Positions 7,824 through 30,723 of a stretch of DNA of 35,788 nt are shown piece after piece. Where the stretch lies: contig JAPOTD010000062.1 of assembly GCA_026709365.1 (NCBI GenBank), positions 1 through 35,788 on the forward strand, in the 5' to 3' direction. This DNA comes from Gammaproteobacteria bacterium (GTDB lineage: Bacteria; Pseudomonadota; Gammaproteobacteria; Pseudomonadales; Azotimanducaceae). A program made the position numbers and the translations under genes. How positions within the stretch are numbered: the stretch's first letter is position 1; the number at the start of each line of letters is the position of its first letter. Below the pieces are notes generated by a model that saw only the letters and a list, made by a program, of their open reading frames with translations, was not told the DNA's origin and did not search any database.

Positions 7824-7841
7824 TGACATATCATTAAGTCA
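7824..7841 (+). promoter_or_regulatory. operator-like 18-bp motif, site A
   Basis: The sequence is TGACATATCATTAAGTCA, and the wider block AATGA-CATA-TCATT at 7822-7835 is a perfect 5-bp inverted repeat. It matches sites B and C at 16 or more of 18 positions. It lies 49 bases upstream of the TonB-receptor ATG. A -35-like TTGAAA (minus strand, 7848-7843) lies immediately upstream of it. Its AT-richness stands out in GC-rich surroundings. A bound repressor here would block the receptor operon promoter (inference). Confidence 0.7.
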
Positions 7842-7844
7842 TTT

Positions 7845-7989
7845 TCAACCAGCCCGCACGGGTTTCGGGAGTAGGTTGAAGCCTTGCGCGGCGAAATCCG
7901 CATCCAGCGCCAGAACGTCAGTCAGCCCAAGGCGGCGCATCAGCGTCAAGGAGGGCGTAGAGCACCGATGTATCAACGAACAGGCTCAC
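7845..7989 (-). pseudogene. VapC-like PIN-domain toxin, internally deleted
   Basis: On the minus strand a GTG at 7989 overlaps the stop of the upstream antitoxin (GTGA). It begins MSLFVDTSVLYALLDAD, the PIN-domain first strand with the catalytic Asp, but terminates at 7918. In a second frame the DNA continues LGLTDVLALDADFAAQGF and ends NLLPKPVRAG at 7845. That is the usual VapC C-terminus, with the LALDaDFaaqGF signature. About 80-90 middle residues are missing and the join is out of frame, so no active nuclease can be made. The remnant ends one base before the site A region. Confidence 0.78.
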
Positions 7990-8243
7990 GAACCGTAGGC
8001 CTCATCAAGGTGTTGGTCGTGATTCTCCGCGACGTCGCGGCATCCCGAATGAAAAAGTCCAGTGAGTTCGCGGGCGCGGTCAAGCAGGGCGCGGCGGTCC
8101 CGTTCGGGCCGACGCGCCAAGTACTCCGTGACGCTCTCGCGCACGAGATCGGACAATGAACGTTCCTCGGCGCGCGCACGGACTCGGAGCGCGCCAGCCT
8201 GCTCCGCCGTGAGTTGAACCTGCATCCTGACAAGTGATGCCAT
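7986..8243 (-). CDS. ribbon-helix-helix antitoxin (VapB/CopG-like)
   Basis: The product is 85 residues from the ATG at 8243, with AGGAA nine bases upstream. The N-terminal half, VRMQVQLTAEQAGALRVRARAEERSLSDLVRESVTEYL in the middle of the protein, has the strand-helix-turn-helix periodicity of a ribbon-helix-helix DNA-binding fold. The C-terminal tail is charged and would wrap a toxin. The gene overlaps its toxin by four bases (GTGA), but that toxin is internally deleted, so this antitoxin is now an orphan. It may still bind DNA and could cross-react with other toxins; there is no direct evidence for either. Confidence 0.78.
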   Translation of the reverse strand: MASLVRMQVQLTAEQAGALRVRARAEERSLSDLVRESVTEYLARRPERDRRALLDRARELTGLFHSGCRDVAENHDQHLDEAYGS

Positions 8244-8295
8244 GACGGCAATTCCTACAGCATGATGTCACCAGCTTGGGGCCGCGCTGGCACAA

Positions 8296-8568
8296 TTGTC
8301 AACAACACTTCCAGCAAACACTTCCAGCGTTGACACGGCGGCGGAGGTCGAGGCCTTGCTGGCGGCGGATGTTCCCGAACGCCAAGCAAGGGCCATCGTG
8401 CGGATGGCCGTCCGAATCCAGGATGGTTTGGTCACGAAAAGCCACTTGGACGCCACGCTCGAAGCCAAGCTCGCAACGCTGAAGCACCAGATCGTGGTCA
8501 CGTTGGTCGGCGCCATGGTCGGCGTGGCCGGGCTGGCCTTGGCCATCGGGCAATCCATGTTCAGGTAG
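8296..8568 (+). CDS. small coiled-coil protein with C-terminal membrane segment (DUF1640-like)
   Basis: The frame gives 90 residues. The middle has the pattern VEALLAADVPERQARAIVRM followed by a helix ending LVTKSHLDATLEAKLATLKHQ, then a hydrophobic segment VVTLVGAMVGVAGLALAIG that should span the membrane. This order (QA-containing helix, 'vtk.dL..lea.l' coiled coil, one terminal TM) resembles the small DUF1640/CCDC90-like proteins common near mobile or toxin genes. The only in-frame start is a TTG at 8296 with no ribosome site, and the first 35 bases hold a 13-bp tandem repeat (AACACTTCCAGC at 8304 and 8317). The true 5' end may therefore be damaged. Function is unknown. Confidence 0.5.
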   Translation: MSTTLPANTSSVDTAAEVEALLAADVPERQARAIVRMAVRIQDGLVTKSHLDATLEAKLATLKHQIVVTLVGAMVGVAGLALAIGQSMFR

Positions 8569-8585
8569 GTGGCGGAATTCCGTCT

Positions 8586-9431
8586 CTACGGCGACGGCCC
8601 CTCGTTCCGGGAGGTTGGCTGCTGGGGCTCAGCCACCCGCGTCAGGCCAGCTTGAATCCAGCGCAGGTTGATGCCGATGCGGTCGGCGCCAGGCTCGGCC
8701 CAAGCGTAGCTTAGGGTGTCGCCGGTGGCGAGTTCGATGACGCCCAGCTTCAGAATCGACGTTCGGGTGTTCTGGTAGGTGAGCCGGGCCAGCTCGACGG
8801 CGTAGCCGGTCGGCCGGCCATCGTCGAGGACCGGCAGCAGGAAGCCTTCGTCGTGCCAGTCAGCCTCGCGCACGAACACGTAGTCGTCATCCGCCGCCTC
8901 GGCGTCCAGATGGCTGCGCTTAAGCGCCACCCAGCCGCGGTAATGGCGCACTCGCCTAGCCCGCTCCGCCTCCCCATCGGGCCAGACCGCCTCAAGCCCG
9001 GCTTCATCGACGCTGATCCGCCCCGGCAATCCGGCGCAGCCGCCGTCCAAGGCCTCGCCCGTGAAGCCGGCAGGTGTGCTGCGCCACGCATAACGGCATT
9101 GGGAGGCGCCGGAGACTTGGGCAATCCAGCCTTGGCGCTCCGTTGCGAAGGCAAAGCTCCAACCGGGCGCGTCGGGAGCGGCTTGGCCCTGCCCGATCGC
9201 TAGATCGAGACGATCATCACCGTCCTTTTGGAAACGCCAATGCCTGCGCACGCCCTCGGCAGCACCATCCAAGCCCTGCTGCCAGACCTGCTCATTGCTG
9301 TTGTATTCGCCGGCCAGCAGCGCCGTCAACCGATCGCTGTCGGCCAGCGCAGGGAGGGCGGACACCGCCAAGCCCAACGCCAAGGCGCGGGGTTTGGACG
9401 GCCAGCGGGATGCTTCAGACGGTTTGGGCAC
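8586..9431 (-). CDS. exported CpcT/CpeT-like protein
   Basis: The product is 281 residues from a GTG at 9431 that lies inside the last codons of the upstream deacetylase gene (17-base overlap). Residues about 12-31 (RALALGLAVSALPALADSD) form a signal peptide. Right after it comes LTALLAGEYNSNEQVWQQ, which matches the opening of the CpcT/CpeT family (L...laG.fsN..Qa). The rest is strand-rich, with SQCRYAWRSTPAGFTGEALDGGCAGLPG like the family's Cys-containing middle. In cyanobacteria these calycin-fold proteins attach bilins to phycobiliproteins; non-cyanobacterial relatives have unknown roles. It is the last gene of the operon starting at the cysteine hydrolase. A truncated relative lies at 22189-22399. 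Confidence 0.55.
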   Translation of the reverse strand: MPKPSEASRWPSKPRALALGLAVSALPALADSDRLTALLAGEYNSNEQVWQQGLDGAAEGVRRHWRFQKDGDDRLDLAIGQGQAAPDAPGWSFAFATERQGWIAQVSGASQCRYAWRSTPAGFTGEALDGGCAGLPGRISVDEAGLEAVWPDGEAERARRVRHYRGWVALKRSHLDAEAADDDYVFVREADWHDEGFLLPVLDDGRPTGYAVELARLTYQNTRTSILKLGVIELATGDTLSYAWAEPGADRIGINLRWIQAGLTRVAEPQQPTSRNEGPSP

Positions 9432-10344
9432 GCCAAGCCGCCACGATGTCGGAGGCGGATGCGGACCAAATGGACGCGCAGCCCGCCAAGTGCTCCAGCA
9501 CCTGCTCGAAGGCGGCGATGCGGTGCGGCTGGCCCATGAGCCAAGGATGCACCGACAGCGCCAACAAGCGCCCGTGGCCGGTCTGGGCCGCTTCGGCGAC
9601 CAGAAAGTCGCAGGCGTCGATGATCTGCGTCGCGTACTCCCACTCCGAGTGCAGGTTGGCGCCGATCAGGAATTGGTCATCCAACTCCAGCGACAGCGGC
9701 AGGGCGACCAGCTCGCCCGCATCGGTGCGAAAGGCGTAGGGCAGTTCGTCGTTGATCCAGTCGCCCATGTAGCACACCCCTTGGGCCGCCAGCAGGTCCG
9801 GGGTGCGGTGGCTTTGGGAGCGGGCTGGGCTCACCCAGCCTTCGACCGCTTGGCCGGTGCGCTCGCGCAGGGTCGCCAAGCTCCTCTCGACGATGGCCCG
9901 CTCCTCGGCGAGCCCGAGTTCGCCGTGGTGCAGCGTGTCCATGTGCCAGGAACTGGCCAGGACTTCGTCGCCGCGCCGAGCCAGCCGGTCAAGCAGGCTG
10001 GGGCAGCGCTCGGCCAGCGCCCCGTTGACGGCGAAGGTCGGGCGGATGCCGAAGGCGTCCAACGCTTCCAGGCAGCGCACGATGCCCACGCGGTTGCCGT
10101 ACTCGCGCAACGTGAAGTGCCGCAAATCCGGATAGGGCGTGCTCATGCCGCCGGGCGGCGCAAAGGGCTTGCCACGCTGGTCCAAGGGGAAGAACTGCAC
10201 CGCCAAGTTCACCCAGAGGGCAACGCTGGCTCCTCCCGGCCAGTTGATCGGGGGACGGTCGCCGAGCATGGAGAATTCGTAGCGCTCATGGTCCATCCCG
10301 CGGCGGCGGCGCGGATACTCCAAATGTTTGGCGTCAAGGGTCAT
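9415..10344 (-). CDS. PuuE-like polysaccharide-deacetylase-family hydrolase 1
   Basis: The product is 309 residues from an ATG that overlaps the previous gene's stop (ATGA). It has the NodB-type TIM-barrel layout of the PuuE allantoinase / cyclic-imide hydrolase branch: WPGGASVALWVNLAVQFF, REYGNRVGIVRCLEALDAFGI, ERTGQAVEGWVSPARSQSHRTPDLL, then SLELDDQ and a final LSVHPWLMGQPHRI. The usual second motif is altered: the expected S/C-H-G is SSWHMDTLHHGE here, unlike SHGIYN in its neighbour. That suggests a different active site or substrate. PuuE-type enzymes hydrolyse cyclic amides such as allantoin, and related proteins open cyclic imides. It is the third gene of the operon led by the cysteine hydrolase. 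Confidence 0.82.
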   Translation of the reverse strand: MTLDAKHLEYPRRRRGMDHERYEFSMLGDRPPINWPGGASVALWVNLAVQFFPLDQRGKPFAPPGGMSTPYPDLRHFTLREYGNRVGIVRCLEALDAFGIRPTFAVNGALAERCPSLLDRLARRGDEVLASSWHMDTLHHGELGLAEERAIVERSLATLRERTGQAVEGWVSPARSQSHRTPDLLAAQGVCYMGDWINDELPYAFRTDAGELVALPLSLELDDQFLIGANLHSEWEYATQIIDACDFLVAEAAQTGHGRLLALSVHPWLMGQPHRIAAFEQVLEHLAGCASIWSASASDIVAAWRAQTV

Positions 10345-11270
10345 GGCGCTGCTTCCGCCCCGCCGTCCCGCGCGCCGGACCGCGCCAAGTCAAGGTCGTA
10401 GTAGTGCTCAAGGTAGTGCTCCGCGATCTCCCGGCCGGTCGCTAGCCAAACGCCCTCGTGCTCGGTTGCGTGGGCCAGCGCCTCCTCAAAGGCGCGCAGC
10501 CGGTGGGGGTGGGCGACCTGATAGGGATGCAGCGGCACGCACATCACCGTGCCGCCCGCCTCGCCTTCGCGATGCAGCCGGTCGAAGGCCTGCTTGATCA
10601 TCTCGCCGTAGCGCCGCGGCTCCACCCGATTGACGACGTAGGCGATGGTGTCGTTGAGTTCCAGCGAGTAAGGCACGGACACGAACCGCTTTCCCGAACG
10701 CACCCGAACGGGCGTCGGCTGGTCGTCGTGGAACAGGTCACAGGTGTAGATGCCGCCCGCCTCGGCAAACAGGTCCAGCGTTTGCTCCGTATGCGTCAGG
10801 GCCGGCGCCAGATAGCCCGCGCAAGGCTGTCCGGTGTGGCGGAGGATGGCCGCCATGGAGTCCTCGATCATCGCCTGCTCCTGGGCTGCGTCCATGCCGT
10901 AGGCGTAGCGGGTGTTGTAGATGCCGTGGCTGAAGAACTCCCAGCCGCGCGCCGCGCCCAGCTCGATGATCTCCGGATGGTGGTCGCAGACCGCAGCCGA
11001 CAGGCTGACCGAGCCGCGCACGCCGTACTTGTCGAGCACCGCCATCATGCGCGCAAGGCCCACCCGATTGCCGTAGTCTCGGGTCGCGTAGCCCTGCACG
11101 TCGGGCGCTGGCCTGGGCCACGCCCGGCGGGACGGGTTGGCGGGCGGGTCGAGTTCATAGAACTCGATGTTGGGCGCCACCCAGAACGCCAGCCTGGCGC
11201 CGCCGGGCCAGCGGATGGGCAGGCGCTCGTCCCAAGCGCGATAGCGGTAAAGATCGGGGTCGTCGCGCAC
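10341..11270 (-). CDS. PuuE-like polysaccharide-deacetylase-family hydrolase 2
   Basis: The product is about 309 residues. The preferred start is the GTG at 11270, with AGGAG eight bases upstream; a TTG six codons earlier would place that AGGAG inside the gene. Motifs are WPGGARLAFWVAPNIEFYEL, TRDYGNRVGLARMMAVLDKYGV, EFFSHGIYNTRYAYGM (intact S-H-G), HTGQPCAGYLAPALTHTEQTLDLF, CDLFHDDQPTPV, PYSLELNDTIAY and CVPLHPYQVAHPHRL. These fit the PuuE/allantoinase-like branch better than chitin or peptidoglycan deacetylases, and there is no signal peptide, so it is cytoplasmic. Its end overlaps the start of deacetylase 1 by four bases. The two may form a hetero-oligomer or act on successive amide bonds (inference). 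Confidence 0.84.
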   Translation of the reverse strand: MRDDPDLYRYRAWDERLPIRWPGGARLAFWVAPNIEFYELDPPANPSRRAWPRPAPDVQGYATRDYGNRVGLARMMAVLDKYGVRGSVSLSAAVCDHHPEIIELGAARGWEFFSHGIYNTRYAYGMDAAQEQAMIEDSMAAILRHTGQPCAGYLAPALTHTEQTLDLFAEAGGIYTCDLFHDDQPTPVRVRSGKRFVSVPYSLELNDTIAYVVNRVEPRRYGEMIKQAFDRLHREGEAGGTVMCVPLHPYQVAHPHRLRAFEEALAHATEHEGVWLATGREIAEHYLEHYYDLDLARSGARDGGAEAAP

Positions 11271-11303
11271 CTCGCAGTCTCCTAGCAATGTCCAGGCAAT
11301 ATC

Positions 11304-12017
11304 CTAAAAGGGCGCGCCGCGGCCTTCACGGATGGGCGGGCAGCCGGGATGGTCGGCCAGCCAAGCCTCCACCGCCGCGAAGGGTTCGACGTCGCCGTAC
11401 TTGAGCATGATGTCGCAGAGATTGCTGAAGTGGGGAATCTCGTGCTTGTCGGCCACGCACTCCTCGGGGACGATGGTGCGGTAGCCGTGGGACAGGGACG
11501 CCACCGCCGAAGCCCGCACGCAGCCGGAGGTGCTGCCGCCGGTGAGGATCACCGTGTCAACCTTGTGCCAGACCAGCAGCGAGGGGATGAGGCTGTCATG
11601 GAACACGCTGGCCATGCGCTTGTTGACGATGGCGTCGCGATGGCGGTCGATGTCCAGGCGCGGGTCGAGTTCGGCGCGCTCGCTGCCCTCCTTGATGTTC
11701 TGCAGCGAATCCTCAGTGTTGGTTCGGGTGCCCCAGACGCCGGCGTCATCGGCGTTGCCCATGTAGGCGACGTAGGTCCAGATCACCGGCATGTTGCGGC
11801 TGCGGGCCAGTTCAGCCAGCCGGTTGACGTAGCGAATCTGGTTCGGGTCGGTGCGGTAGGCGGTGGCGAAGCGCGCAACGTCGGTGTAGGCGCGCTGCAA
11901 GTCGATGTTGATCAGCGCCGCCTTCTCGCCAAACCCGAACCGGGCGCGGCGCGGGTTGGACTTGACCTGCGCCCAGTACTGCCTGGGCGTCAAATCCGAT
12001 GTCTGCATGTCCGGCAT
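11304..12017 (-). CDS. isochorismatase-family cysteine hydrolase (amidase type)
   Basis: The product is 237 residues from the ATG at 12017, with AAGGA seven bases upstream; a TTG five codons earlier is in frame but would contain that site. The catalytic triad is complete: Asp39 (LINIDLQRAYTD), Lys133 (VNKRMASVFHDS) and Cys166 (GGSTSGCVRASAV). That Cys motif is typical of N-carbamoylsarcosine-amidase and maleamate-amidase relatives rather than of true isochorismatases. It likely hydrolyses a linear amide or half-amide in the cytoplasm, releasing ammonia. It is the first gene of the minus-strand operon that continues with two PuuE-like hydrolases, and site B is 33 bases upstream of its start. 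A pairing of ring-opening amidohydrolase and half-amidase is the natural reading. Confidence 0.88.
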   Translation of the reverse strand: MPDMQTSDLTPRQYWAQVKSNPRRARFGFGEKAALINIDLQRAYTDVARFATAYRTDPNQIRYVNRLAELARSRNMPVIWTYVAYMGNADDAGVWGTRTNTEDSLQNIKEGSERAELDPRLDIDRHRDAIVNKRMASVFHDSLIPSLLVWHKVDTVILTGGSTSGCVRASAVASLSHGYRTIVPEECVADKHEIPHFSNLCDIMLKYGDVEPFAAVEAWLADHPGCPPIREGRGAPF

Positions 12018-12049
12018 GCCACAGTCCTTCAAGACATCAATACATCCAT

Positions 12050-12067
12050 TGTCATATCATTAGGTCA
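12050..12067 (+). promoter_or_regulatory. operator-like 18-bp motif, site B
   Basis: The sequence is TGTCATATCATTAGGTCA, two changes from site A and two from site C. It lies between the divergent cysteine-hydrolase gene (start 12017, minus) and the flavoenzyme gene (start 12132, plus), so one bound protein could control both. The plus-strand operon downstream includes the GntR/HutC regulator, which would make the regulator self-controlled. Confidence 0.72.
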
Positions 12068-12131
12068 CCACCCAGTCAATGGCGCGCCCGCAATTTGAGC
12101 GGATCCGCGCCAGACCCGCAGGAGCCCGTTG

Positions 12132-13703
12132 ATGAGCGACCTTCCAACCGCCTTGGCCCCCTTGGCTGTGCGCATCGGCGCCGAGCGCCTGCTGATCGAC
12201 GACGACGCCCTGACGTTGTACGGCCAGGACGTGTCCGGCGAAGCGCACCCCCTAAGCGCCGTGGTGCGTCCCGCCGACATCAGCGATCTTCTCGCCACGG
12301 TGCGCTTCGCGGCGGAGCATGGCTTCGTGGTCGCGCCCCGAGGCGGCGGGATGTCCTACAGCGGGGGCTATGTCTGCCCCCGCGGACGCACCCTCTGCCT
12401 GGACATGGCCGCCATGGGCGAGGTCTTGGAGATCAACGCCGAGGACATGTACGTGCGGGTGCAGGCCGGCTGCACTTGGAAGGCCCTGCACGAGGCGCTC
12501 GAACCCCACGGCCTGCGCACGCCGTTCTGGGGCACCCTCTCCGGCTTGGGCGCCACAGTGGGCGGCTCCCTGTCGCAGAACGCGCTGTTCTGGGGCAGCG
12601 GTCGGCATGGCTGCGCCGCTGACTCGGTGGTCGGCTTCGAGATCGTGCTGGCCAACGGCCAGGTGCTGCGCACGGGCGCTGCGGCGCGCAACGGGACGCC
12701 GCCCTTCTTCCGCCACTACGGGCCCGACCTCACCGGGCTGTTCACTTGCGACAACGGGGCGCTGGGCATCAAGGCGACGGCGACCCTGAAGCTGCTGCCG
12801 AGGGGCGAGGCACGGCACGGCGTCAGCCTGACCTTTGCCGACCACGGCGGGATGCTCGCCGCCATGTCGGAAGTCTCCCGGCAGCGCTTGGCCGAATCCT
12901 GCTTCGGCTTCGACCCCGGCCTGCAGGCGCAGCGCATGAAGCGCGAATCCCTGGCGCAGGACGTCAAGACCCTGGGCCAGACGGTCGCGGCCCAGAACAG
13001 CCTGCTGGATGCGGTAAAGATCGGCGCCCGCATCGCCGTGGCCGGCCGTCGATTTCTGGCGGAGGCCGACTACTCCGTCCACTTCATGGTTGAGGAGCGC
13101 ACCGGAGCGGCAGCCGAGGACGCCGCCGAGCGCATCATGCGCATCGGCCAGGATGCGGGGGGCAAGGCGGTGGAGAACACCATTCCCACGGTCACCCGCG
13201 CCAATCCCTTCGGGCCGCTCAACTCCATGATCGGGCCTTCCGGAGAGCGCTGGCTGCCGGTGCATGGCCTGGTGCCGCACTCCGAGGCCAAGGCCGCCTA
13301 CGAGGCCGTTTCCGCCCTGTTCGAGCGCAACGCGGCGGTTCTGGAGGAGCACGGCATCGCGCACGGCACCCTGTTCACCACCGCGGATACCAACTGTTTC
13401 GTGATCGAGCCGGTCTTCTACTGGCCCGATGGGCTGAACGCCCTGCACCGGCACAGCGTCGAAGCCGCCGTGCTGCGGAGGACCAACGCCTTCCCGGACA
13501 ATCCCGCAGCGCGGGCGGAGGTCATGCGCCTGCGCCGGGAGGTGGTGGACACCCTGGCGGCCTGCGGCGCGGTGCATTTGCAGATTGGGCGCCTTTACCC
13601 CTACGCCCGGGATCTGGACGCCGCCTCGTTGACGACGGTTAGGGAATTCAAGCGCGCGCTCGATCCCGATGGGCGCATGAACCCTGGCGCACTCGGGCTG
13701 TGA
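12132..13703 (+). CDS. VAO/PCMH-type FAD-linked oxidoreductase
   Basis: The product is 523 residues from the ATG at 12132, with AGGAG seven bases upstream. The N-terminal FAD domain has VVRPADISDLLATVRFAAEHG, the pyrophosphate loop APRGGGMSYSGGY, and GLGATVGGSLSQNALFWGSGRHG, followed by LPRGEARHG. The C-terminal cap domain ends with IGRLYPYARDLDA and ALDPDGRMNPGALGL, as in 4-cresol dehydrogenase, vanillyl-alcohol oxidase and glycolate/lactate oxidases. These enzymes take a hydride from a hydroxyl or para-alkyl-phenol carbon. Whether FAD is covalently bound cannot be seen. It is the first gene of the plus-strand operon from site B and overlaps the next gene by four bases (GTGA), which suggests translational coupling. 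Confidence 0.86.
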   Translation: MSDLPTALAPLAVRIGAERLLIDDDALTLYGQDVSGEAHPLSAVVRPADISDLLATVRFAAEHGFVVAPRGGGMSYSGGYVCPRGRTLCLDMAAMGEVLEINAEDMYVRVQAGCTWKALHEALEPHGLRTPFWGTLSGLGATVGGSLSQNALFWGSGRHGCAADSVVGFEIVLANGQVLRTGAAARNGTPPFFRHYGPDLTGLFTCDNGALGIKATATLKLLPRGEARHGVSLTFADHGGMLAAMSEVSRQRLAESCFGFDPGLQAQRMKRESLAQDVKTLGQTVAAQNSLLDAVKIGARIAVAGRRFLAEADYSVHFMVEERTGAAAEDAAERIMRIGQDAGGKAVENTIPTVTRANPFGPLNSMIGPSGERWLPVHGLVPHSEAKAAYEAVSALFERNAAVLEEHGIAHGTLFTTADTNCFVIEPVFYWPDGLNALHRHSVEAAVLRRTNAFPDNPAARAEVMRLRREVVDTLAACGAVHLQIGRLYPYARDLDAASLTTVREFKRALDPDGRMNPGALGL

Positions 13704-15187
13704 GCCGATCGGCCATCGCCACGACGGCGGAACTGCCGCCGGTCCGACCACCGAGCATCCGCTGCTCAAGCGCACGGGTGCGCGTGGACGGCACCGAGCT
13801 CGATCTGCACTATCGGGTGACCGGCTCCGGCCCGCCGCTGTTCGCGCTGCACCCCTCCCCCCTCGACTCCGCCTTCATGGCGCCGCTCATGGCCAGGTTG
13901 GCGAGCCGGGCCACGGTCATCGCGCCGGACACGCCGGGCTTCGGCGACTCGGACCCGCTGCCGGGCCCGATCGACGACTTAAGCCCCTGCGTACGCGCCA
14001 TGACGGCGCTGCGCCAAGCCTTGGGGCTGGAGCAGGTGGGCGTCTATGGCTCCGCAACCGGGGCGCAGATCGCCGTCGAGTGGGCCAAGGCCGAACCCCA
14101 AGCGCTCAGCGGCATCATGCTCGACAACGCCGCCGCCTTCGATGACGCCGAACGGCAGCGGATACTTGAGGGCTACCTGCCGGACGTGACGCCCAGCCCC
14201 GACGGCGGCCATTTGGCGCGCGCCTGGCTGGCGGCGCACGACGGCACCCTGTTCTTTCCTTGGCAAGCGCCCGCAACGGAGAACCGCATCGCCCGGGCGC
14301 TTGCGCCCGCGGCTGCCATGCAGGCGACCGCACGAGGCTACTTGCGCGCCGGACCCGGCTACGCTTCGATCTACCGCGCCGCCTTCCGCAACGAGCGGGT
14401 GGAGCGGCTGGCGCCGGTGGCGACACCCTTGGTGATACTGCGCTGGCAGGGCAGCATTCTGGCCCGCTGGACGGGACGCCTCGATACCCAATCCTGGGGC
14501 GCCAACGTGACCATGGCCCATTGCGGGCCTTCGCTGGATGAGCGTTGGGCCTGCTTGGAACGCAACCTCGAACGCATCCTGCCGGCGAATTCGGTGCGGG
14601 CACAAGACCTGTGCCTGGAAAGCGGACGCCTGCGCCACGTGGACTCCAGTTTTGGGCAAATTCGCTACCGGCAACCCGATGGCGCGGCACCGACGCGCCT
14701 GCTGATCCCGCAGCCCGGCGCAACCGAGGCCGCGCTCCCCGACAGCGCCGCCCATCCGGCCTCGGCGGTGGTCGATCTGCCGGGGCACGGGGGATCGGCG
14801 CTGCCGGAGGATCTCAGGCCCAGCCACTGCGTGGAAGCCGTGCGCCGCATCGCAGCCGCTCTGGATGGAGTGGCCCGGTCCGTCGCCGGCGTCGGGCTTT
14901 CGGATGCTTTGGCGCAAGCAGTGGCGGCCGTCGAACCCGCGCTAGACCAAGCCGCGGCCCAGCCCGCGGAATTCCAAGGCCAACCGCCGGACTTGACCCC
15001 GGAGCGCTCCGGCGCCCATCTGCTGCGCGCTTGGCACTGGCTGCGGGAGCCGTTTCTGGCGCGCGACGAGGCGCCGCCGGAACCGGTGCGCCTGACAAGA
15101 ATGCTGATCGACCTAATCGATGCCCAAGCCGCGCATCGGGCCCTGCGGGAAGCGCTCGACGCCCCGAACCGCACCGATCGCTCCTAG
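13700..15187 (+). CDS. tandem alpha/beta-hydrolase-like protein lacking the nucleophile
   Basis: The product is 495 residues from a GTG that overlaps the flavoenzyme stop. Residues about 25-295 form an alpha/beta-hydrolase unit: LFALHPSPLDS, the loop DTPGFGDSD at 77-85, and the elbow VYGSATGAQIA at 115-125. The canonical G-x-S-x-G is G-S-A-T-G here, so Ala119 occupies the nucleophile position. Residues about 310-490 look like a second, shorter unit: LLIPQPG, then DLPGHGGSALP at 359-369, which mirrors DTPGFGDSD, then VAGVGLSDALAQAVA in the elbow position, also without GxSxG. No ordinary serine-hydrolase chemistry is expected. A cofactor-free oxygenase-like, lyase or binding role is possible; none is shown. 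The ordering beside a flavoenzyme and regulator places it in the pathway. Confidence 0.75.
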   Translation: MSRSAIATTAELPPVRPPSIRCSSARVRVDGTELDLHYRVTGSGPPLFALHPSPLDSAFMAPLMARLASRATVIAPDTPGFGDSDPLPGPIDDLSPCVRAMTALRQALGLEQVGVYGSATGAQIAVEWAKAEPQALSGIMLDNAAAFDDAERQRILEGYLPDVTPSPDGGHLARAWLAAHDGTLFFPWQAPATENRIARALAPAAAMQATARGYLRAGPGYASIYRAAFRNERVERLAPVATPLVILRWQGSILARWTGRLDTQSWGANVTMAHCGPSLDERWACLERNLERILPANSVRAQDLCLESGRLRHVDSSFGQIRYRQPDGAAPTRLLIPQPGATEAALPDSAAHPASAVVDLPGHGGSALPEDLRPSHCVEAVRRIAAALDGVARSVAGVGLSDALAQAVAAVEPALDQAAAQPAEFQGQPPDLTPERSGAHLLRAWHWLREPFLARDEAPPEPVRLTRMLIDLIDAQAAHRALREALDAPNRTDRS

Positions 15188-15236
15188 CCCGGTTGTTTCA
15201 CCAACATGCCTGCCCAATCAAGGGAATAAGGGAATC

Positions 15237-17161: not shown

Positions 17162-17186
17162 GGTCGCAAGCCCACTTCCGGAACCA

Positions 17187-18194: not shown

Positions 18195-18227
18195 TAGAGA
18201 CAAATTTGCGGCAGACGAGCCTCATCC

Positions 18228-19585: not shown

Positions 19586-19598
19586 TAGGGAGGGGACG

Positions 19599-22188: not shown

Positions 22189-22399
22189 TTGGGGATACGC
22201 GCGCAGTCGCCGACGAACGCTTGCGCCGCGGCTTTGCTCGCCACCGCTTTGCTTGGCGCGTCGGGGGCCTGCTGCCTTGGGCGCCGACACGGCGGATGGC
22301 GCGGCGGTGCTTGAGATCTTCGCCAACTATTGGATCGGGGCGTTCTCGAACGAACGGCAAGCCAAGGCCGAGCGGCTGAATCGGGAGCCGGACTATTGA
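22189..22399 (+). pseudogene. fragment of a CpcT/CpeT-like gene
   Basis: Two frames together encode the start of a secreted protein. Frame one, from a TTG at 22189, gives a hydrophobic signal-like segment (CAAALLATALLGASG). A frameshift near 22270-22290 leads to frame two, which reads ADTADGAAVLEIFANYWIG then AFSNERQAKAERL and stops at 22399. The segment YWIGAFSNERQA matches the CpcT family opening (W..G.fsN..QA). The rest of the domain is missing, and the fragment ends against the stop of the convergent LeuD-like gene. It therefore appears to be a decayed second copy of the gene at 8586-9431. Confidence 0.55.
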
Positions 22400-23016: not shown

Positions 23017-24383
23017 ACCAACGCGCCCGGTGCGCCAATGCGCCCGAGGATGGCGGAGGCCGCCACCACTGCGGGGCTGGCCAAGTGCGACCGTGCGCCA
23101 GGCCCCTGCCGACCCTCGAAGTTCCTGTTGGTGGTGGTGATGACGCGCTCCCCGGCCCGGAAGCCCTCCCCGCCCGCAAAGAAGCACATTGAGCAACCCG
23201 GCTCCCGCCACTCGAAGCCGGAATCCTTGAATACCCGATCCAAGCCCTCCGCCTCGGCCAGCCGCTTCACCCGCTTCGATCCCGGAACGCAGATCGCAGC
23301 CACGCCGGGTGCCACGCGATGCCCCCTGAGCACGTCGGCGGCGCTCCGCAGGTCGCTGATGCGGGCGTTGGTGCAGGAGCCGATGAAGGCCGCGTCAATG
23401 CGTTCGGACGCCAAGGGCCGTCCGGGCTCCAGCCCCATGTAGCCAAGCGCTTGGCGGGCGGCGGCGTCCTTCGGCGGCGGAACCGGGTCATCAACCCCCC
23501 CGCAATGCTCCGGCGAGGTGCCCCAGGTGACCTGCGGCGCCACTTCGTGGGCATTGAGGACGAGGTCGCGGTCGAACCGGGCGCCGGGGTCGCTGCGCAG
23601 TCCCCGCCAGCGGCCGAGCGGCGGCTCCCGGGGCGCGAGGGGCGCTCCCGCCAGCTCCTCGAAAACGGCTTCGTCCGGGGCCACAACGGCAGTGGCCGCC
23701 CCGAATTCCGCAGCCATGTTGCACAGCGTCATGCGCTGCTCGACGGTCATCGCGTCGATCCCCTCACCCTGAAACTCGACGGCAGCGCCGCGGCCGCCCC
23801 CCGCGCCATGGGCGGCGATCAAGGTCAGGGCCAAGTCCTTGGCGGTGGCGTGGCCGAGCAGCCGCCCGGTGACGCTGACCCGCATGGTCGCGGGCTTCGT
23901 CATCCGCAGCGTGGAGGTGGCGAGCGCATGCTCGAGTTCGCTGGTGCCGATGCCGAACGCCAAGGCGCCCAGTGCGCCCAGAGTGCAGGTGTGCGAGTCC
24001 GGGCAAACCAAGCTCAAACCCGGCAACGCAATGCCCTGCTCCGCGCTCACCAAGTGGCAGATGCCTTGGTCGTCGTCATCGACGTCGAACATCCGCAGGC
24101 CAAAGGACGCAGCGCCTTGGCGCAGCGCCACGATGAAGTCCCGCCCGCCCGGCACCGGAGTGTCGTCGCTGCGCCCTGGCTGGGTGTCCACGACGTGATC
24201 GGCCACGCAGAAGGCGTGTTCAGGCCGCCGCACACAGCGGCGGCGGCGGGCCAGGGAATCGAGCGCCACGGCACCCGTGCGCTCGTGCATGACCACGCGA
24301 TCCACGTAAACCAAGCTGGCGCCGTCATCGTCCGTTTCAATGCAGTGGCTGTTCCAAAGTTTGTCGAATAGGGTGGCGGACAC
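23013..24383 (-). CDS. LeuC-like large subunit of an aconitase-type (de)hydratase
   Basis: The product is 456 residues with a GTG start at 24383, matching the family's usual first residues (SATLFDKLWNSH); the longer upstream frame has no family similarity. The iron-sulfur ligands are visible: Cys in FIGSCTNARISDLRSA and the CxxC in REPGCSMCFFAGG. Family segments also include VCPDSHTCTLGALGALAFGIGTSE and TNRNFEGRQG. It departs from ordinary LeuC: after HERTGAVALDSL there is a basic RRRR segment, and the region after the CxxC is FFAGGEGFRAGER instead of the usual LGMN. A different substrate is suggested. No clear ribosome site precedes the GTG, and site D lies 22 bases upstream of the start. 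Confidence 0.88.
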   Translation of the reverse strand: MSATLFDKLWNSHCIETDDDGASLVYVDRVVMHERTGAVALDSLARRRRCVRRPEHAFCVADHVVDTQPGRSDDTPVPGGRDFIVALRQGAASFGLRMFDVDDDDQGICHLVSAEQGIALPGLSLVCPDSHTCTLGALGALAFGIGTSELEHALATSTLRMTKPATMRVSVTGRLLGHATAKDLALTLIAAHGAGGGRGAAVEFQGEGIDAMTVEQRMTLCNMAAEFGAATAVVAPDEAVFEELAGAPLAPREPPLGRWRGLRSDPGARFDRDLVLNAHEVAPQVTWGTSPEHCGGVDDPVPPPKDAAARQALGYMGLEPGRPLASERIDAAFIGSCTNARISDLRSAADVLRGHRVAPGVAAICVPGSKRVKRLAEAEGLDRVFKDSGFEWREPGCSMCFFAGGEGFRAGERVITTTNRNFEGRQGPGARSHLASPAVVAASAILGRIGAPGALV

Positions 24384-24404
24384 TGGGCTGAGCAATAGAT
24401 ATAA

Positions 24405-24422
24405 TGACCTATCATTATGGCT
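24405..24422 (+). promoter_or_regulatory. operator-like 18-bp motif, site D
   Basis: The sequence is TGACCTATCATTATGGCT, the most diverged copy, but the block AATGA-CCTA-TCATT at 24403-24416 is a perfect 5-bp inverted repeat like site A. It overlaps TATAAT at 24400-24405 on the plus strand and runs into the aldehyde dehydrogenase ATG (24417-24419). It also lies 22 bases upstream of the LeuC-like start on the minus strand. Confidence 0.6.
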
Positions 24423-25856
24423 AATTTTCTGATCGCAGCGAACCCCCGCGGCGGTTCGGGGCACCGGTTCCGCGCCGCCGCCGCCACCGATGTGCTGGAA
24501 TCGGCCGATCGGTTGCGGGCAGCCCAGCGCGACTGGGCCGCGCTAGCCGTTGATGACCGCCTGTCGGCACTCGCGCAGTGGAGCGAGGCCATGCGGTCCG
24601 CCAGCGAAGACCTCGTGGACGCGCTCACCGAGGATACCGGCAGGGCGCTCATCTCCCGCGCCGAACTCGACGGCGCCTTGGCCCGCATCGCGCACTGGCA
24701 GCGCAAGGCCCCCGACCTGCTGACCGAGATCTCCCAAGGCCATTCCGAGTCCGCGCCCAGCGTGCGTTACCAGCATCGCCGCGATCCGCTTGGCCTAGTG
24801 GCCGTGATCTCGCCGTGGAACTTCCCTTTGCTGCTGATGCTGATCGACGCCGTGCCGGCGCTGGCGGCGGGCTGTGCGGTGCTGGCCAAGCCCAGCGAGC
24901 AAACCCCCCGATTCGTCGAGCCGCTCATGGAAACCGTTCGTTCCGTGCCGTCGCTGGCGGCGGTTTTCGACTGCCTGCTCGGGGGGCCGGAAACCGGCGC
25001 AGCGGTCGTGGACGCCGCCGATGCGGTGTGCTTCACCGGCAGCGTCGCCACCGGACGCCAAGTCGGCCGACAGGCCGGCGAACGGCTGATCCCCGCGTTT
25101 CTGGAGCTCGGCGGCAAGGATCCCCTCATCGTGCTGGCCGATGCGGACGTGCAGGAGGCCGCCCGGATCGCGCTGCGCGGCTCGGTGCTCGCCACCGGCC
25201 AAGCCTGCCAGTCCATCGAGCGCGTGTACGTCCACCAGTCCCTGTACGATGCGTTCGTTCCGGAACTAATCGCCCAAGCCAGCGCCGTGACGCTGAACAC
25301 CGAGCGCGTGGACCGGGGACATCTCGGGCCCTTCATCGATCCTCGCCAAGCCGACTTGGTGGAGGCCCAGCTTGAGGACGCTCTGGCCCAAGGCGCAGCC
25401 CTGCATTGCGGCGGCTTGGTGCGACAGGACGGGGGCGCTTGGTGCAAACCGGCAGTGCTGACTGGCACAAACCACGGCATGGCGCTCTACCGGGATGAAA
25501 CCTTTGGGCCAGTGATTCCGGTCATGTCGTTCGCAACGGACGACGAGGCGGTTGATCTGGCCAACGACTCCGAATTCGGGCTGTCCGCCGCCGTGCTCGG
25601 CGAACAGGCCCACGCCCTGTCCGTCGCCGCCCGGCTGCGCGCCGGCGCGGTCAGCATCAACGATGCAAGCCTGACCTCACAGGTCGGCGACGTGGAGAAG
25701 GACTCCTACGGCGTTTCAGGAGTCGGCCGATCGCGCATGGGACCGAGCGGCCTGCTGCGCTTTCTGCGCCGACAGGCGCTGCTGGTGCAGACCGCCCCTG
25801 CCGCGCCGCTCGATGCGTTCAAGGAAGTGGAGCGGCGTACGGTGACGGACGCCTGA
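24417..25856 (+). CDS. aldehyde dehydrogenase (NAD(P)+-dependent)
   Basis: The product is 479 residues of the ALDH superfamily. Catalytic residues are in place: Asn135 (ISPWNFPLLL), Lys158 (LAKPSEQ), the cofactor loop FTGSVATG, Glu230 (LELGGKDP) and the nucleophile Cys264 (TGQACQSIERV). The C-terminal YRDETFGPVIPV and FGLSAAVLG are also typical. It oxidises an aldehyde to a carboxylic acid, and the substrate is unknown. Its ATG has no ribosome site, and a TATAAT lies 12-17 bases upstream, so transcription would start only a few bases before the ATG; the mRNA may be leaderless. A downstream start is possible, since the first 25 residues are poorly conserved in this family. Confidence 0.93.
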   Translation: MANFLIAANPRGGSGHRFRAAAATDVLESADRLRAAQRDWAALAVDDRLSALAQWSEAMRSASEDLVDALTEDTGRALISRAELDGALARIAHWQRKAPDLLTEISQGHSESAPSVRYQHRRDPLGLVAVISPWNFPLLLMLIDAVPALAAGCAVLAKPSEQTPRFVEPLMETVRSVPSLAAVFDCLLGGPETGAAVVDAADAVCFTGSVATGRQVGRQAGERLIPAFLELGGKDPLIVLADADVQEAARIALRGSVLATGQACQSIERVYVHQSLYDAFVPELIAQASAVTLNTERVDRGHLGPFIDPRQADLVEAQLEDALAQGAALHCGGLVRQDGGAWCKPAVLTGTNHGMALYRDETFGPVIPVMSFATDDEAVDLANDSEFGLSAAVLGEQAHALSVAARLRAGAVSINDASLTSQVGDVEKDSYGVSGVGRSRMGPSGLLRFLRRQALLVQTAPAAPLDAFKEVERRTVTDA

Positions 25857-26735: not shown

Positions 26736-26760
26736 GGTTGCAGTCCTCTCGCACCCAAAA

Positions 26761-26923: not shown

Positions 26924-27913
26924 TCAGCATAACCGCACCACCGTCTTGCCGAAGGTTTGGCCGGCCATGAGGCGGCAGAACGCGGTCGGCGCCGATTCCA
27001 GCCCTGCGAAGACCGCTTCCCGGTAGGCCAAGCTGCCGTCGCGAATGCGGTCGCCCAACTCCTCCTCCATGCGCGGGCGCAAATCCTCGTGGTCATAGAC
27101 CACCAAGCCCCGCAGCGTTGCGCGGGCGCGTATGACCAAGCCGGGATTGGGGCCCGGCGGCACCTCCGCTTGGTTGTACTGCTCCATCAGCCCGCAAAGC
27201 GCCACTCGCGCATTGAGAGCCAAGCGCTCCATCACCGCCTGAAGGATCGCGCCGCCGACATTGTCGAAATACATGTCAATGCCATCGGGACAGAGGGCAT
27301 CAAGCGCCTCGCCGAGCGGCGCATGGCGGTCGATGCAACCGTCAAAACCAGCCGCTTCGCACAGCCAGTCCGCTTTATCCCGGCTGCCAACGATGCCGAT
27401 GATCCGGGCGCCAGCCGCCTTGGCCAACTGGCCCACGGTCGCGCCGACCGGGCCGGCGGCCGCGGACACCACCAGGGTTTGTCCGGGCGCTGGCTGCAGA
27501 ATGCGCTCCACGCCGGCGAATGCCGTGAGGCCGGGCATGCCGAGCACGCCCAAGGCAAGCGATGGCGGCTCCAAGCCATCGGGAATGGCGTTAAGCGCCT
27601 GCTCAGGCAGGCGCACCCGGTTCTGCCAAGGACCAAAGGCCCGGGCCAAGGTGCCCGCCGGACCGACAGCCGAGTCCTCAATGGTGCGGACGATCAGTTC
27701 ACTCTCCATCGGCTGGCCGGGCGCAATGGCCCCAGTGACGTGCCTGCCGCTTAGGCGCCCCCGCAAATAGGGATCAATCGAAAGGTAGAGCACCTCGGCC
27801 GCCACCCCGGACTCCGGCTGCTGCGCAGGCTGCAGGGCAAAGTCGCTTGGCGCGGGGTTGCCCACGGGGCAGCGGGCGACGGTCACGCAGGCATTGGGCT
27901 TGGGCTCGGTCAT
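26924..27913 (-). CDS. zinc-free NADP-dependent medium-chain reductase
   Basis: The product is 329 residues from an ATG that overlaps the VOC stop (ATGA). It shows the MDR layout of the 2-alkenal/curcumin reductase branch: LYLSIDPYLRGRLSG, LGVLGMPGLTAFAGVERILQ, the nucleotide loop VVSAAAGPVGATVGQLAKAAG, IGIVGSRDKADWL, and YFDNVGGAILQAV. There are no zinc ligands, so it likely reduces a carbon-carbon double bond of an enone or enal with NADPH. It is the last gene of the minus-strand operon that starts at the methyltransferase, preceded by a VOC gene. Confidence 0.9.
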   Translation of the reverse strand: MTEPKPNACVTVARCPVGNPAPSDFALQPAQQPESGVAAEVLYLSIDPYLRGRLSGRHVTGAIAPGQPMESELIVRTIEDSAVGPAGTLARAFGPWQNRVRLPEQALNAIPDGLEPPSLALGVLGMPGLTAFAGVERILQPAPGQTLVVSAAAGPVGATVGQLAKAAGARIIGIVGSRDKADWLCEAAGFDGCIDRHAPLGEALDALCPDGIDMYFDNVGGAILQAVMERLALNARVALCGLMEQYNQAEVPPGPNPGLVIRARATLRGLVVYDHEDLRPRMEEELGDRIRDGSLAYREAVFAGLESAPTAFCRLMAGQTFGKTVVRLC

Positions 27914-28797
27914 GCATCCTCCAGCAGTTCATAGAGCGTGCCGTCCGGGTCAGCCAGCACCGCGCTGCGCCGCCCGTCGTAGAGCATCTCGTCATGGCGA
28001 GCCGGCGGTTCGATGCAGGCGTCGGCAACGGCATCGAGGCTCGGCACTGACAGGGTCGTCATGGCGATGCCGGGCGGCAGGCGTCCCGCCCGGCTGGGAC
28101 GCGGCACCGCAGCGGGCGGCATCTGGTCCACTTGCAGGAACAGCTCATCGCCACGCTTTAGGGTGGAAATGGTGAATCGCGTGTCCAGCGGCTTGCCGAA
28201 CGCCTGCGCCAGCATGGTGTAAGCCATCTCCACGCGGGCCATGGCGACGGTGCAATCAAGGTGCAGCTCGGCCCACTGCTGGGTGGCGTCGAGATCGCTG
28301 GCGCCAACCACATGGATGAACAAGCGGTCCACGAAACTGTGCGCCCGGGGCAAGGAAAGCCCCGGCGGGTCGTCGTCAATCTGCGTGAAGTAGCAGATCT
28401 CGCCATCCGGGCCGCGCACCTGCATGGCGCACAGGCTGTCCAAGCCGTCGAGCCGCCGGGGCGGCCCGATGATCTCGAATGGCGAATCGGCCAGCCGCGT
28501 CGCCACAGCCTGTACGTCACGGACGCAGAACTCCAAGGCCGTCCAGCCCATGCTGACCAAGGGCTTAAAGCCAACCACCGTCGGCGACTCGACCAGCCGC
28601 AAGTAGGTGTCCGCGCCCGAGGGCGGCTGCAGCAGCGCACAGGCCGCACCGGCAGCGTCCGGGGCCGCCCAAGCGCCAGCCAAAGTCTCGGAGATCCGGC
28701 TGGTTTCGACGGTGCGGTACTCGATCAGGCGTTCGTAGGCCTGCCGGCTGCGCTCCAGATCAGCGACGCAGACCGTCCCGGCGCGCAGCGGCGTCAC
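27910..28797 (-). CDS. two-domain VOC-family protein
   Basis: The product is 295 residues from a GTG with GGAGG nine bases upstream. Domain one (about 1-130) starts LRAGTVCVADLERSRQAYERLIEYRTVET and ends MQVRGPDGEICYFTQI. Domain two (about 150-295) begins FVDRLFIHVVGASDLDATQQW and ends SAVLADPDGTLYELLED. Two fused VOC units of this size are typical of extradiol-type dioxygenases or hydrolases, but the metal ligands cannot be confirmed from sequence alone. It overlaps the reductase by four bases. A 255-base gap separates it from the small gene at 29053; I see no gene or structure in that gap. Confidence 0.8.
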   Translation of the reverse strand: MTPLRAGTVCVADLERSRQAYERLIEYRTVETSRISETLAGAWAAPDAAGAACALLQPPSGADTYLRLVESPTVVGFKPLVSMGWTALEFCVRDVQAVATRLADSPFEIIGPPRRLDGLDSLCAMQVRGPDGEICYFTQIDDDPPGLSLPRAHSFVDRLFIHVVGASDLDATQQWAELHLDCTVAMARVEMAYTMLAQAFGKPLDTRFTISTLKRGDELFLQVDQMPPAAVPRPSRAGRLPPGIAMTTLSVPSLDAVADACIEPPARHDEMLYDGRRSAVLADPDGTLYELLEDA

Positions 28798-29052
28798 GTC
28801 CGCCGACCTCCAGGGAGCATCCGATCATGCCCCGGAAGTCCAGAGCGGCCTGTGGGGCGGGCTGGCAAGGCGCACCGACGAGCGGCGGACGGTCTCGGGA
28901 TTGCTCGAGTCGCCGACATCCCGCGGTCGAGTGGCGCACAGCGCCGCTCATTCATGCGATGCGCTTCCTGCGGGCAGGCAACTGTTGCCCCGCCGAAGGC
29001 GTCGGCCTCGGCACCGAGCCGGAGCAAACCGAAGGCTTCCGAGTTGGCGGCG

Positions 29053-29430
29053 TCATTCCCCGAACATCCGGGCGCCGGCTTCCGCCGACGTGGGCTCCTC
29101 GCCGCGCTGCTGGGCCTCCGCTTCCTGCTGCAGGATGCGCAGAATGCGGGCCAAGTACTCCTGCTGCCATCGGCCGCGCTCCTGCGCATGCGCCGGGCTC
29201 GGCACGAAGGCTTCGATTTCAGCCCGGGTCAGGCTGCCCCGACTCTCCAGCAGCTCCTCAATGGTGTCCAGGCGCTGCCGCAGCACAGCCAGTTCCCCGG
29301 CAATCGCCATGGCAATGGACAGCACCCGTTCCGCATCCGGGTTCTCAAGGAAGTAGGGCCGCTTGCCGCGCGCCTTGGCGCCCGCCAAGCGGGCGACGTC
29401 AAGCGGCGGTTGCTCGCGGTCCTCGCTCAA
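29053..29430 (-). CDS. conserved hypothetical protein
   Basis: The product is 125 residues, probably started by the TTG at 29430, which has AGGAG nine bases upstream and lies 12 bases after the methyltransferase stop. I do not recognise a family. The middle (VLSIAMAIAGELAVLRQRLDTIEELLESRG) is predicted helical, with a hydrophobic then coiled-coil-like stretch, followed by a charged helix rich in Glu, Gln and Arg. There is no signal peptide or clear membrane segment. Its position between a methyltransferase and a VOC gene suggests an accessory role in that operon. Confidence 0.65.
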   Translation of the reverse strand: MSEDREQPPLDVARLAGAKARGKRPYFLENPDAERVLSIAMAIAGELAVLRQRLDTIEELLESRGSLTRAEIEAFVPSPAHAQERGRWQQEYLARILRILQQEAEAQQRGEEPTSAEAGARMFGE

Positions 29431-29442
29431 GCCGGCCCACTC

Positions 29443-30654
29443 CTAAGCAGCGACTTCGGCGCCGGTGATGCGCCAGGCGGGCTTGCGGCCGTAGTCCTCC
29501 ACCTCATCGGCAGCGGCATCGACCAACCCCTCCTCCTCGGCAATCGCATGCACGCCCTCGTGAATTAGCCGGTCTGGGTCGAAGCCCGCCGCCACCATGA
29601 GTTCGTCCAAGTCGATCTCGTGCAGCTTAGTCCAGAAGGGCTCGTTGTTGTTGAACGCATCCCAGTCCCGCAGCGCCTGTTCCAGCAGCGGCATGGCCGC
29701 GTCATAGCGGGGCTGCTCAACGTGGGTCACCAAGCCGCCCGGAGCGACCAGGCGGCGGCTTTCGGCCATGATGCGCTTCAGAGCGGGGAAGGAGGTTTCG
29801 TGGAGAAACATGATGCTGCCGACCCAATCGAAGCTGCCGTCCTCGAACGCGGACAGGTCGGTGGCGTCGGCCTGCACGAAGGTCACGTTGCTGATGCCCA
29901 GGCTCGCCGCCCGAGCGGCGCCGTAGCGCAGCATGGGCGCAGCCACGTCCACCGCCGTCACCTCGGCATCGGGATAGGCGGCGGCGATGGGCAGCACGTT
30001 GTGGCCCAGGCCGCAGCCCAGATCGAGAATGCGCTGCGGCGCGAAGTCCGGGCGCAGCTTCCTCAAAAACGCGACCATGCCCCGACCACCGCCGTCCGCC
30101 AAGCGGCCAAGCAGCCCGGCCGTGGTGACGAACAGCCCGGAGTCGTAGTTGGCCGCGGCGCTGACGTCCCGCTCCAGCCGCTCGGTGTAGTAGCTGCCCG
30201 GCATGCAGTGGTGGTCCACGGCGGTCAGGTAGCGGGGCTGCTCAAGCGCCGGGTTCAACTGCAGGCGCTGCCGGTCGGCCAAGGCCGCGCTGCGCTCGAT
30301 CAGTTCCCGCAGCTGCCCAAGCACGACGGTTAGGCCGGACTGCTGACGCATCTCCATGGCGTTGCGGCGCAGGGCGCTCCACATCTGGTAAAGGGAATGG
30401 CCTTCCAATTCGCGCCGCACCTCGTGCCGGTCGGCCGGGGCGCGGCCATGCCGCTGGCGAAAGTCGGGCTCGACCGCGCTTTGGTAGGCCGCGGTAACGC
30501 CCGGCAGCACTTCGGCCGCCAAGTGCCGGTTCAGGTGCGCCAGGAAATTGTAGCGCTCCGTCTGGTCGTGGGTGGTGTTCGGGAGCAGCGCATGCCGACC
30601 CACCGTGCGATAGTCCGGGGGGCCGTCATAATCCGTTCGGCTGACCGCTTGCAT
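29443..30654 (-). CDS. SAM-dependent methyltransferase with N-terminal extension
   Basis: The product is 403 residues from an ATG with AGGAGGT upstream. Residues about 205-320 are a class I methyltransferase core: RILDLGCGLGHNVLPIAAAYP (motif I), VTAVDVAAPML with the acidic ribose-binding residue, VTFVQADATDL, and DWVGSIMFLHETSFPALKRIM. The first 190 residues form a helical domain of unknown family that contains HDQTERYNFLAHLNRHL. It is the first gene of the minus-strand operon from site E. Substrate is unknown; O- or N-methylation of a pathway intermediate, or a protective step, are both possible. Confidence 0.87.
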   Translation of the reverse strand: MQAVSRTDYDGPPDYRTVGRHALLPNTTHDQTERYNFLAHLNRHLAAEVLPGVTAAYQSAVEPDFRQRHGRAPADRHEVRRELEGHSLYQMWSALRRNAMEMRQQSGLTVVLGQLRELIERSAALADRQRLQLNPALEQPRYLTAVDHHCMPGSYYTERLERDVSAAANYDSGLFVTTAGLLGRLADGGGRGMVAFLRKLRPDFAPQRILDLGCGLGHNVLPIAAAYPDAEVTAVDVAAPMLRYGAARAASLGISNVTFVQADATDLSAFEDGSFDWVGSIMFLHETSFPALKRIMAESRRLVAPGGLVTHVEQPRYDAAMPLLEQALRDWDAFNNNEPFWTKLHEIDLDELMVAAGFDPDRLIHEGVHAIAEEEGLVDAAADEVEDYGRKPAWRITGAEVAA

Positions 30655-30705
30655 GTCTTCCAGACCTCCTGTTCTCCGAACACTTCAAATCTGCAAATGA
30701 CGTAT

Positions 30706-30723
30706 TATCATATCAATATGTCA
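30706..30723 (+). promoter_or_regulatory. operator-like 18-bp motif, site E, inside a larger palindrome
   Basis: The 18-mer TATCATATCAATATGTCA matches site B at 15 positions; extending two bases gives 17 of 20. It lies in a wider inverted repeat with arms CAAATGAC (30694-30701) and GTCATTTG (30720-30727). The AT-rich centre includes TATTAT (30703-30708), a -10-like box on the plus strand. It is placed between the divergent methyltransferase (start 30654, minus) and deacetylase 3 (start 30816, plus). Confidence 0.7.

Follow-up and report, generated by a model that had tools for sequence, protein, structure and literature searches.

A conserved 26-bp inverted repeat as the predicted operator of a GntR/HutC-type regulator in a gammaproteobacterial catabolic gene cluster

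Can genes that annotation leaves unconnected be recognised as parts of one response from the DNA between them? This question is raised by a stretch of 35,788 nucleotides (the window; the whole of positions 1 to 35,788 of contig JAPOTD010000062.1, from the Gammaproteobacteria bacterium assembly GCA_026709365.1), where a preliminary description had noticed an AT-rich 18-bp motif at five promoter regions and the gene of a GntR/HutC-type protein. With a probability of about 0.87, we read the five sites as operators to which this single local protein, a self-regulating member of the GntR family and the HutC/UTRA subfamily, is predicted to bind. The regulon, from an uncultured marine bacterium, appears to be a real single-regulator system, common in type and so far not described, and its operator accompanies the regulator gene across distantly related marine bacteria. 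Its operator unites 28 genes of nine units, among them those for a receptor, a permease, enzymes linked to coenzyme A (CoA), hydrolases and oxidoreductases, and the grouping of these genes into one response makes their pathway approachable as a unit.

The five 18-bp copies are all present exactly where they had been placed. However, the 18-mer forms part of a longer element and is superseded by it: the real unit is a 26-bp inverted repeat with the consensus WGACATAATGATATATCATTATGTCW. This follows from sites A and C, where the 18-mer is matched again on the opposite strand with a shift of eight bases, as overlapping halves. The aligned 26-mers are TGACACAATGACATATCATTAAGTCA (A), ACATCCATTGTCATATCATTAGGTCA (B), TGACCTAATGATATATCATAGAGACA (C), AGATATAATGACCTATCATTATGGCT (D) and TGACGTATTATCATATCAATATGTCA (E), and their palindromic self-matches, out of 26, amount to 20 for A, 12 for B and 18 for each of C, D and E. 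Site B, the weakest palindrome, is missed by a strict 26-bp pattern that recovers the other four. Beyond the 18-mer, the eight outer bases agree with the mirror image of the other arm at 26 of the 40 positions compared over the five sites (binomial p ~5e-6, at 0.30 per position). The operator core is TGATATATCA, with a matrix weight of 0.83 for the G at position 10 of 26, and the outer arms, TGAC/GTCA, lie 8 bp further out than the core.

The count of nine flanked units was correct, since B, C, D and E each stand between divergent units and A serves a single one. The statement that every copy is intergenic holds only partly for D, which overlaps the first codon of the open reading frame called for an aldehyde dehydrogenase (24417). 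A search for promoter-like matches found -10-like hexamers inside B, D and E, and none on A or C. Both the TATAAT inside operator D and the overlap with the aldehyde dehydrogenase start occur in 9 of 9 aligned rows, from which it would follow that the message of this gene may be leaderless.

The source genome comprises 3,704,187 bases in 144 contigs and is 95.7% complete. With up to three mismatches, the idealised consensus recovered A, B and C in the window, where 0 matches were expected (100 shuffles). A degenerate 18-mer with the same tolerance gave eight matches in the whole genome, seven of them at the five places on the window's contig and one elsewhere (C65:116149), against two genome matches of its backwards control, and the next 80 kb of the same contig hold no site scoring at least 17. 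The scatter of random intragenic matches that the preliminary description had named as fatal to its proposal thus amounts to one 18-mer match outside the contig.

To follow conservation, 58 relatives were scanned with a control pattern and with the 26-bp one, up to three mismatches being allowed; the 18-mer was left aside for this comparison because at three mismatches it matches at least 51 of the 58, mostly at control level outside the carriers of the regulator. These carriers, which possess a close GntR/HutC ortholog (E ≤6.4e-100, 62-100% identity), are nine: the window's own genome, seven of its eight other congeners and one genome of another genus (G021). At looser E-values some GntR protein is found in many genomes (44 of the 58 at 0.001), and G047 has one of 37% identity; such looser matches were not counted as orthologs. 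Close orthologs of the isochorismatase-type hydrolase occur in the same nine genomes as the regulator. The nine carriers hold 43 operator places against 0 for the control, 41 of them on contigs or in regions of the cluster, whereas the other 49 relatives show 44 against 40, which is the chance level. The remaining congener, G003, lacks a regulator ortholog (best GntR match 3.2e-5) as well as the isochorismatase, and has 0 operator places.

The conservation is also narrowly placed. In footprint rows chosen on the basis of a site found at the junction, the operator is 75-86% identical between species over its 26 bases, and the adjoining stretches of 30 bases to the left and right mostly reach 30-43%, the coding side of D being an exception with 63%; at site C the central 12 bases are 99% identical over 13 rows, and the flanks 36-38%. 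Gene neighbours are kept at most operator junctions across genomes, and a site before the TonB receptor is seen in eight genomes (in rows chosen for having one), though the receptor itself differs. Conservation of the motif at the same gene junctions, which had been proposed as something to look for in relatives, is what these genomes present. In G021 the homologous units are spread over several contigs, five of which have an operator place. In G001, a single contig, a complete receptor unit is separated from the cluster by about 2.2 Mb (record coordinates) and, as a predicted target in trans, carries an operator between the gene labelled g2 and that of the TonB receptor (identities of 72% for g2, 31% for the receptor, 53% for the amine oxidase and 71% for the DUF1838 protein). 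The operator picked out this receptor-oxidase unit, and is thus usable as a genomic probe.

A weaker site was observed in one genome only (L161 4950-4975, from G007:C23), upstream of a VanA-type Rieske oxygenase with an SDR and an arylmalonate-decarboxylase-like protein as neighbours, and is a possible target in trans. A connection of this site with a pheophorbide oxygenase was rejected, as Pfam gives the vanillate-demethylase type.

Do operators of this kind also surround more distant regulators? A regulator alignment scan of named genomes gave 53 loci. A symmetric matrix of 26 columns, with N penalised and a threshold of 16, found 54 matches in 618 kb of 35 loci, compared with a mean of 6.0 and a maximum of 16 for 100 permuted matrices, so some of the 54 are chance matches, for example the two in L098; an unsymmetrised version of 30 columns, iterated with a loose threshold, moved off towards AT-rich noise and runs of N. 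Twelve independent loci (L121-L132) come from Exilibacterium, Alteromonas, SAR92, Luminiphilus, LSUCC0057 and related metagenome-assembled genomes (MAGs), with regulators 38-46% identical to that of the window. Here a matrix trained on the window's own family, without these loci, found 32 sites of at least 26 bits, against a mean of 0.38 and a maximum of 5 for 200 permuted matrices. Each of the 32 precedes a called open reading frame start by no more than 250 bp, as do 21% of random positions. A site directly before the regulator gene is present in the records of G001, LSUCC0057, SAR92, UBA4026 and Luminiphilus (L086, L129-L132). Regulator and operator are thus found together in records of Luminiphilus, SAR92, LSUCC0057, Alteromonas and Exilibacterium, so that named strains, instead of an uncultured bacterium represented by MAGs, are available for a search for the substrate.

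Further away the signal fades: 23 loci with more distant GntR genes gave 0 sites at 26 bits and one at 22 bits, which is the chance level. Among 369 sampled genomes of the class, the isochorismatase was found at 1e-40 in five and the regulator at 1e-30 in six, and the loci fetched from the regulator-bearing genomes contained four sites of at least 26 bits, where 0.1 would be expected. G424 has the isochorismatase (78%) and two deacetylase genes, its best GntR match is 31% identical (7.2e-19), and no operator occurs in the 40 kb around these genes. No relative of the regulator was found in viral contigs, where 19 stretches matched a pattern and none was confirmed. The near relatives of the regulator belong to gammaproteobacterial MAGs and to a few labelled alphaproteobacteria. 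One congener locus (L107, that is, G007:C83) is assigned to Candidatus Azophilus lithoversatilis, of the family Candidatus Azotimanducaceae and the order Pseudomonadales, and several of the source MAGs are presumably sponge-derived, to judge from their isolate names.

The regulator combines an N-terminal GntR winged helix-turn-helix (PF00392, 60 bits against a cut-off of 27) with a C-terminal UTRA effector domain (PF07702, 74.2 bits against 23.8), and aligns with NagR/YvoA and DasR over most of its length. NagR (YvoA) of Bacillus subtilis, a GntR/HutC protein which recognises dre sites, is among the closest known systems. In NagR, Arg38 reads G-5, Arg48 reads G-4 and the half-sites stand six nucleotides apart (PMC4333415). 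The predicted operator likewise has a central inverted repeat, here TGATATATCA, with the G at -4 and the six-nucleotide spacing, and the arginine that reads G-4 is kept, as Arg61, invariant in nine aligned sequences. In contrast, Arg38 is replaced by Ala51 in the window regulator, by Tyr in G047 and, among the regulators of 38-46% identity, by Gln, Glu or Lys. At -5 the operator carries T, instead of the GG half-site of dre. Spacing and bases therefore fit the residues that remain in the regulator. Two more features separate the system from NagR and dre as far as the same source describes them, namely the extra outer arms, with 26 bp overall, and targets among which no amino-sugar gene was recognised. 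AraR, another member of the GntR family, too keeps one of the two base-reading arginines, the one for the G-4 equivalent, and the half-site spacings are 5 for FadR and 6 or 8 for AraR (PMC4333415).

The system also resembles the histidine-utilisation regulon of HutC, a catabolic regulon under a HutC-family regulator which was reconstructed by comparative genomics in Proteobacteria (PMC5343134). HutC proper was considered as an identity for the window protein and rejected (91.2 bits against the TIGR02018 equivalog cut-off of 220), and no hut enzyme was identified among the window proteins scanned. Keyword searches found no paper describing this regulon or pathway, in one case by an unspecific query, in another among the matches listed, and with little coverage of subscription literature.

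How could such a regulator act on its sites? A dimer would read the central TGATATATCA in the fashion of NagR, with Arg61 contacting the G at -4, while recognition of the outer TGAC/GTCA arms would fall to a second dimer or to extended contacts. Since B, D and E each coincide with a -10-like hexamer, the bound protein probably blocks RNA polymerase, and the regulator is probably a repressor. Occlusion of the polymerase, lifted by a ligand of the UTRA domain, would be the likeliest mechanism, where a substrate or intermediate of the pathway may bind this domain and derepress uptake (TonB, MFS), catabolism and the regulator together. The circuit is self-regulating in this proposal because one of the operators, site B, stands at the promoter of the unit that includes the regulator gene; not all carriers have a site immediately before that gene.

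Several points weigh against the assignment. We infer the regulator and the direction of control by computation, and occlusion-type repression too, since A and C have no promoter-like match. The twelve distant loci were fetched by regulator similarity, two of them (L130 and L131) are near-duplicates, so the 32 sites are not all independent, nine of the 32 lie inside some called open reading frame (90% for random positions), and several of the twelve have no strong site directly before the regulator. Sites are missing from L133-L135 (regulators of 37-42%; L133 and L134 are short), from the isochorismatase unit and the whole 20 kb in G421 (regulator of 33%) and from the isochorismatase units of G221 and G103, though regulators of 34-40% exist in these last two genomes. 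One NagR-type dimer does not account for the outer arms. Arg38 is likewise absent from distant GntR proteins around which no such sites occur, most of which possess the Arg61 equivalent, so that the fit between residues and bases is consistent with the assignment without discriminating it. Finally, G009, which has no regulator ortholog, contains a perfect palindrome, TGGCATATTGATATATCAATATGCCA, upstream of a CoA-transferase III gene (L159 5758-5783, that is, G009:C43:65758-65783).

This palindrome, and the fact that the GntR link is one of co-occurrence, would suit a different explanation, where the operators belong to another regulator encoded elsewhere and the GntR gene is a passenger of the cluster. 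We consider it unlikely. The GntR/HutC protein is linked to the sites because both occur in the same nine of the 58 relatives, because operators persist around regulators only 38-46% identical while the gene content changes greatly, because some sites stand directly before the regulator gene, and because G424, with core enzymes and no close regulator, is a natural negative. The idea that the repeats are back-to-back TATAAT-like -10 elements, conserved for RNA polymerase, takes support from their AT-richness and from the TATCAT or TATAAT that B, D and E hold where -10 elements are expected; however, a general promoter element would recur genome-wide, whereas the 26-bp element is nearly confined to the cluster, rises above chance only in regulator-bearing genomes and has mirrored outer arms, which makes this idea very improbable. 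Copies from a recent duplication or from a mobile repeat inserted near promoters, for which the toxin-antitoxin genes of the window and the signs of rearrangement near site A might speak, are hardly credible at all, because the flanks differ among the five sites and among species while the sites stay at the same junctions. The genome specificity, the conserved junctions and the co-occurrence of regulator and operator together support the single regulated catabolic system that the preliminary description had proposed.

Under one GntR/HutC regulator, the predicted operators would govern 28 genes in the nine units listed in Table 1. The operators do not extend this system to 1-1329, a lone open reading frame at 1330-2445 and the pair at 25936-26717, in which a GNAT acetyltransferase and a TacA-type antitoxin stand, without an operator, between the aldehyde dehydrogenase and reductase units.

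Table 1. Predicted operators, regulator and operator-linked units of the window.
Feature	Coordinates	Strand	Description
Operator A	7816..7841	.	26-bp inverted repeat; upstream of the TonB receptor unit only
Operator B	12042..12067	.	Between the isochorismatase/deacetylase unit and the FAD-oxidase/hydrolase/regulator unit; overlaps -10-like TATCAT 12055-12060
Operator C	18177..18202	.	Between the HMG-CoA-lyase-like/amidase unit and the CoA-transferase/VOC/MFS unit; no promoter-like match
Operator D	24397..24422	.	Between the LeuCD-like hydratase unit and aldehyde dehydrogenase; contains TATAAT, with CGGACA 17 bp upstream
Operator E	30698..30723	.	Between the methyltransferase unit and the deacetylase/acyl-CoA dehydrogenase/CoA-transferase/MmgE-PrpD unit; overlaps -10-like TATCAT 30706-30711
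GntR/HutC-type regulator	15237..16022	+	GntR helix-turn-helix and UTRA domain; proposed binder of A-E, self-regulating via B
Unit A	2532..7829	-	TonB receptor (likely start 7775 or 7790), flavin amine oxidase, DUF1838, small conserved protein
Unit B-left	8586..12032	-	Isochorismatase-type hydrolase, two PuuE-like polysaccharide-deacetylase-family proteins, conserved protein
Unit B-right	12129..16022	+	FAD-linked oxidase, alpha/beta hydrolase, regulator
Unit C-left	16124..18155	-	HMG-CoA-lyase-like aldolase, carbon-nitrogen hydrolase (nitrilase-type)
Unit C-right	18228..22187	+	CoA-transferase III, two VOC proteins, MFS permease
Unit D-left	22393..24380	-	LeuC-like and LeuD-like hydratase subunits
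Unit D-right	24417..25856	+	Aldehyde dehydrogenase
Unit E-left	26924..30654	-	Methyltransferase, conserved protein, VOC-like protein, CurA-like reductase; co-transcription of the last two presumed
Unit E-right	30768..35550	+	PuuE-like deacetylase-family protein, acyl-CoA dehydrogenase, CoA-transferase III, MmgE/PrpD

What these enzymes may degrade can be judged from their families. Only the LeuD-like, LeuC-like and 3-hydroxy-3-methylglutaryl-CoA (HMG-CoA)-lyase-like proteins reach NCBIfam cut-offs (leuD and subfamily models), and no model among those scanned names a pathway. The LeuD-like subunit passes the leuD cut-off (182.1 against 116.25), and the LeuC-like subunit, at 492.6 bits, stays below the leuC equivalog cut-off of 560.25. 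The notion that it is the only LeuC of the genome was rejected, as a second one on another contig, with 713.4 bits, is over the cut-off; the window pair is thus a paralog, which perhaps acts on another substrate. The PuuE-like proteins fall below their model cut-off, and the amidase family represented is N-carbamoylsarcosine-amidase-like. Taken together, the families suggest a pathway that opens a cyclic amide or imide ring, followed by amide removal, hydration, CoA transfer and retro-Claisen cleavage, and the most economical reading would have a cyclic amide or imide converted, by way of a substituted maleate, into pyruvate and an acyl-CoA.

A bolder proposal, which we regard as unlikely, is that of an ancient marine gammaproteobacterial regulon, with two dimers on the composite 26-bp operator, serving a new route for ring-shaped nitrogen compounds. 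If it were true, the route would include PuuE-like opening of an imide or amide, amide removal of the isochorismatase or nitrilase type, hydration of a substituted maleate by the LeuCD paralog, CoA transfer and an HMG-CoA-lyase-like cleavage. Substituted maleimides are expected from the breakdown of tetrapyrroles (chlorophyll, bilins), and such a route would suit them; the imide and tetrapyrrole idea is built on enzyme families and general biochemistry.

The surroundings of site A show signs of rearrangement. In the block at 3005-7841, which is inverted relative to congeners, the TonB receptor is about 30-34% and the amine oxidase 50-54% identical to those of congeners at the same place, whereas much higher values are seen for many genes nearby (80-95% in the nearest congeners), and the receptor is closer to that of another genus (G021, 58%). 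Receptor and oxidase seem to have been exchanged and the operator retained. Beside this block, at 7842-8585, a six-frame reading by eye found the remnant of a toxin-antitoxin system, with a ribbon-helix-helix-like antitoxin and a broken PIN-like partner. Short imperfect repeats lie at 868-1157 and recur in L068, L071 and L077.

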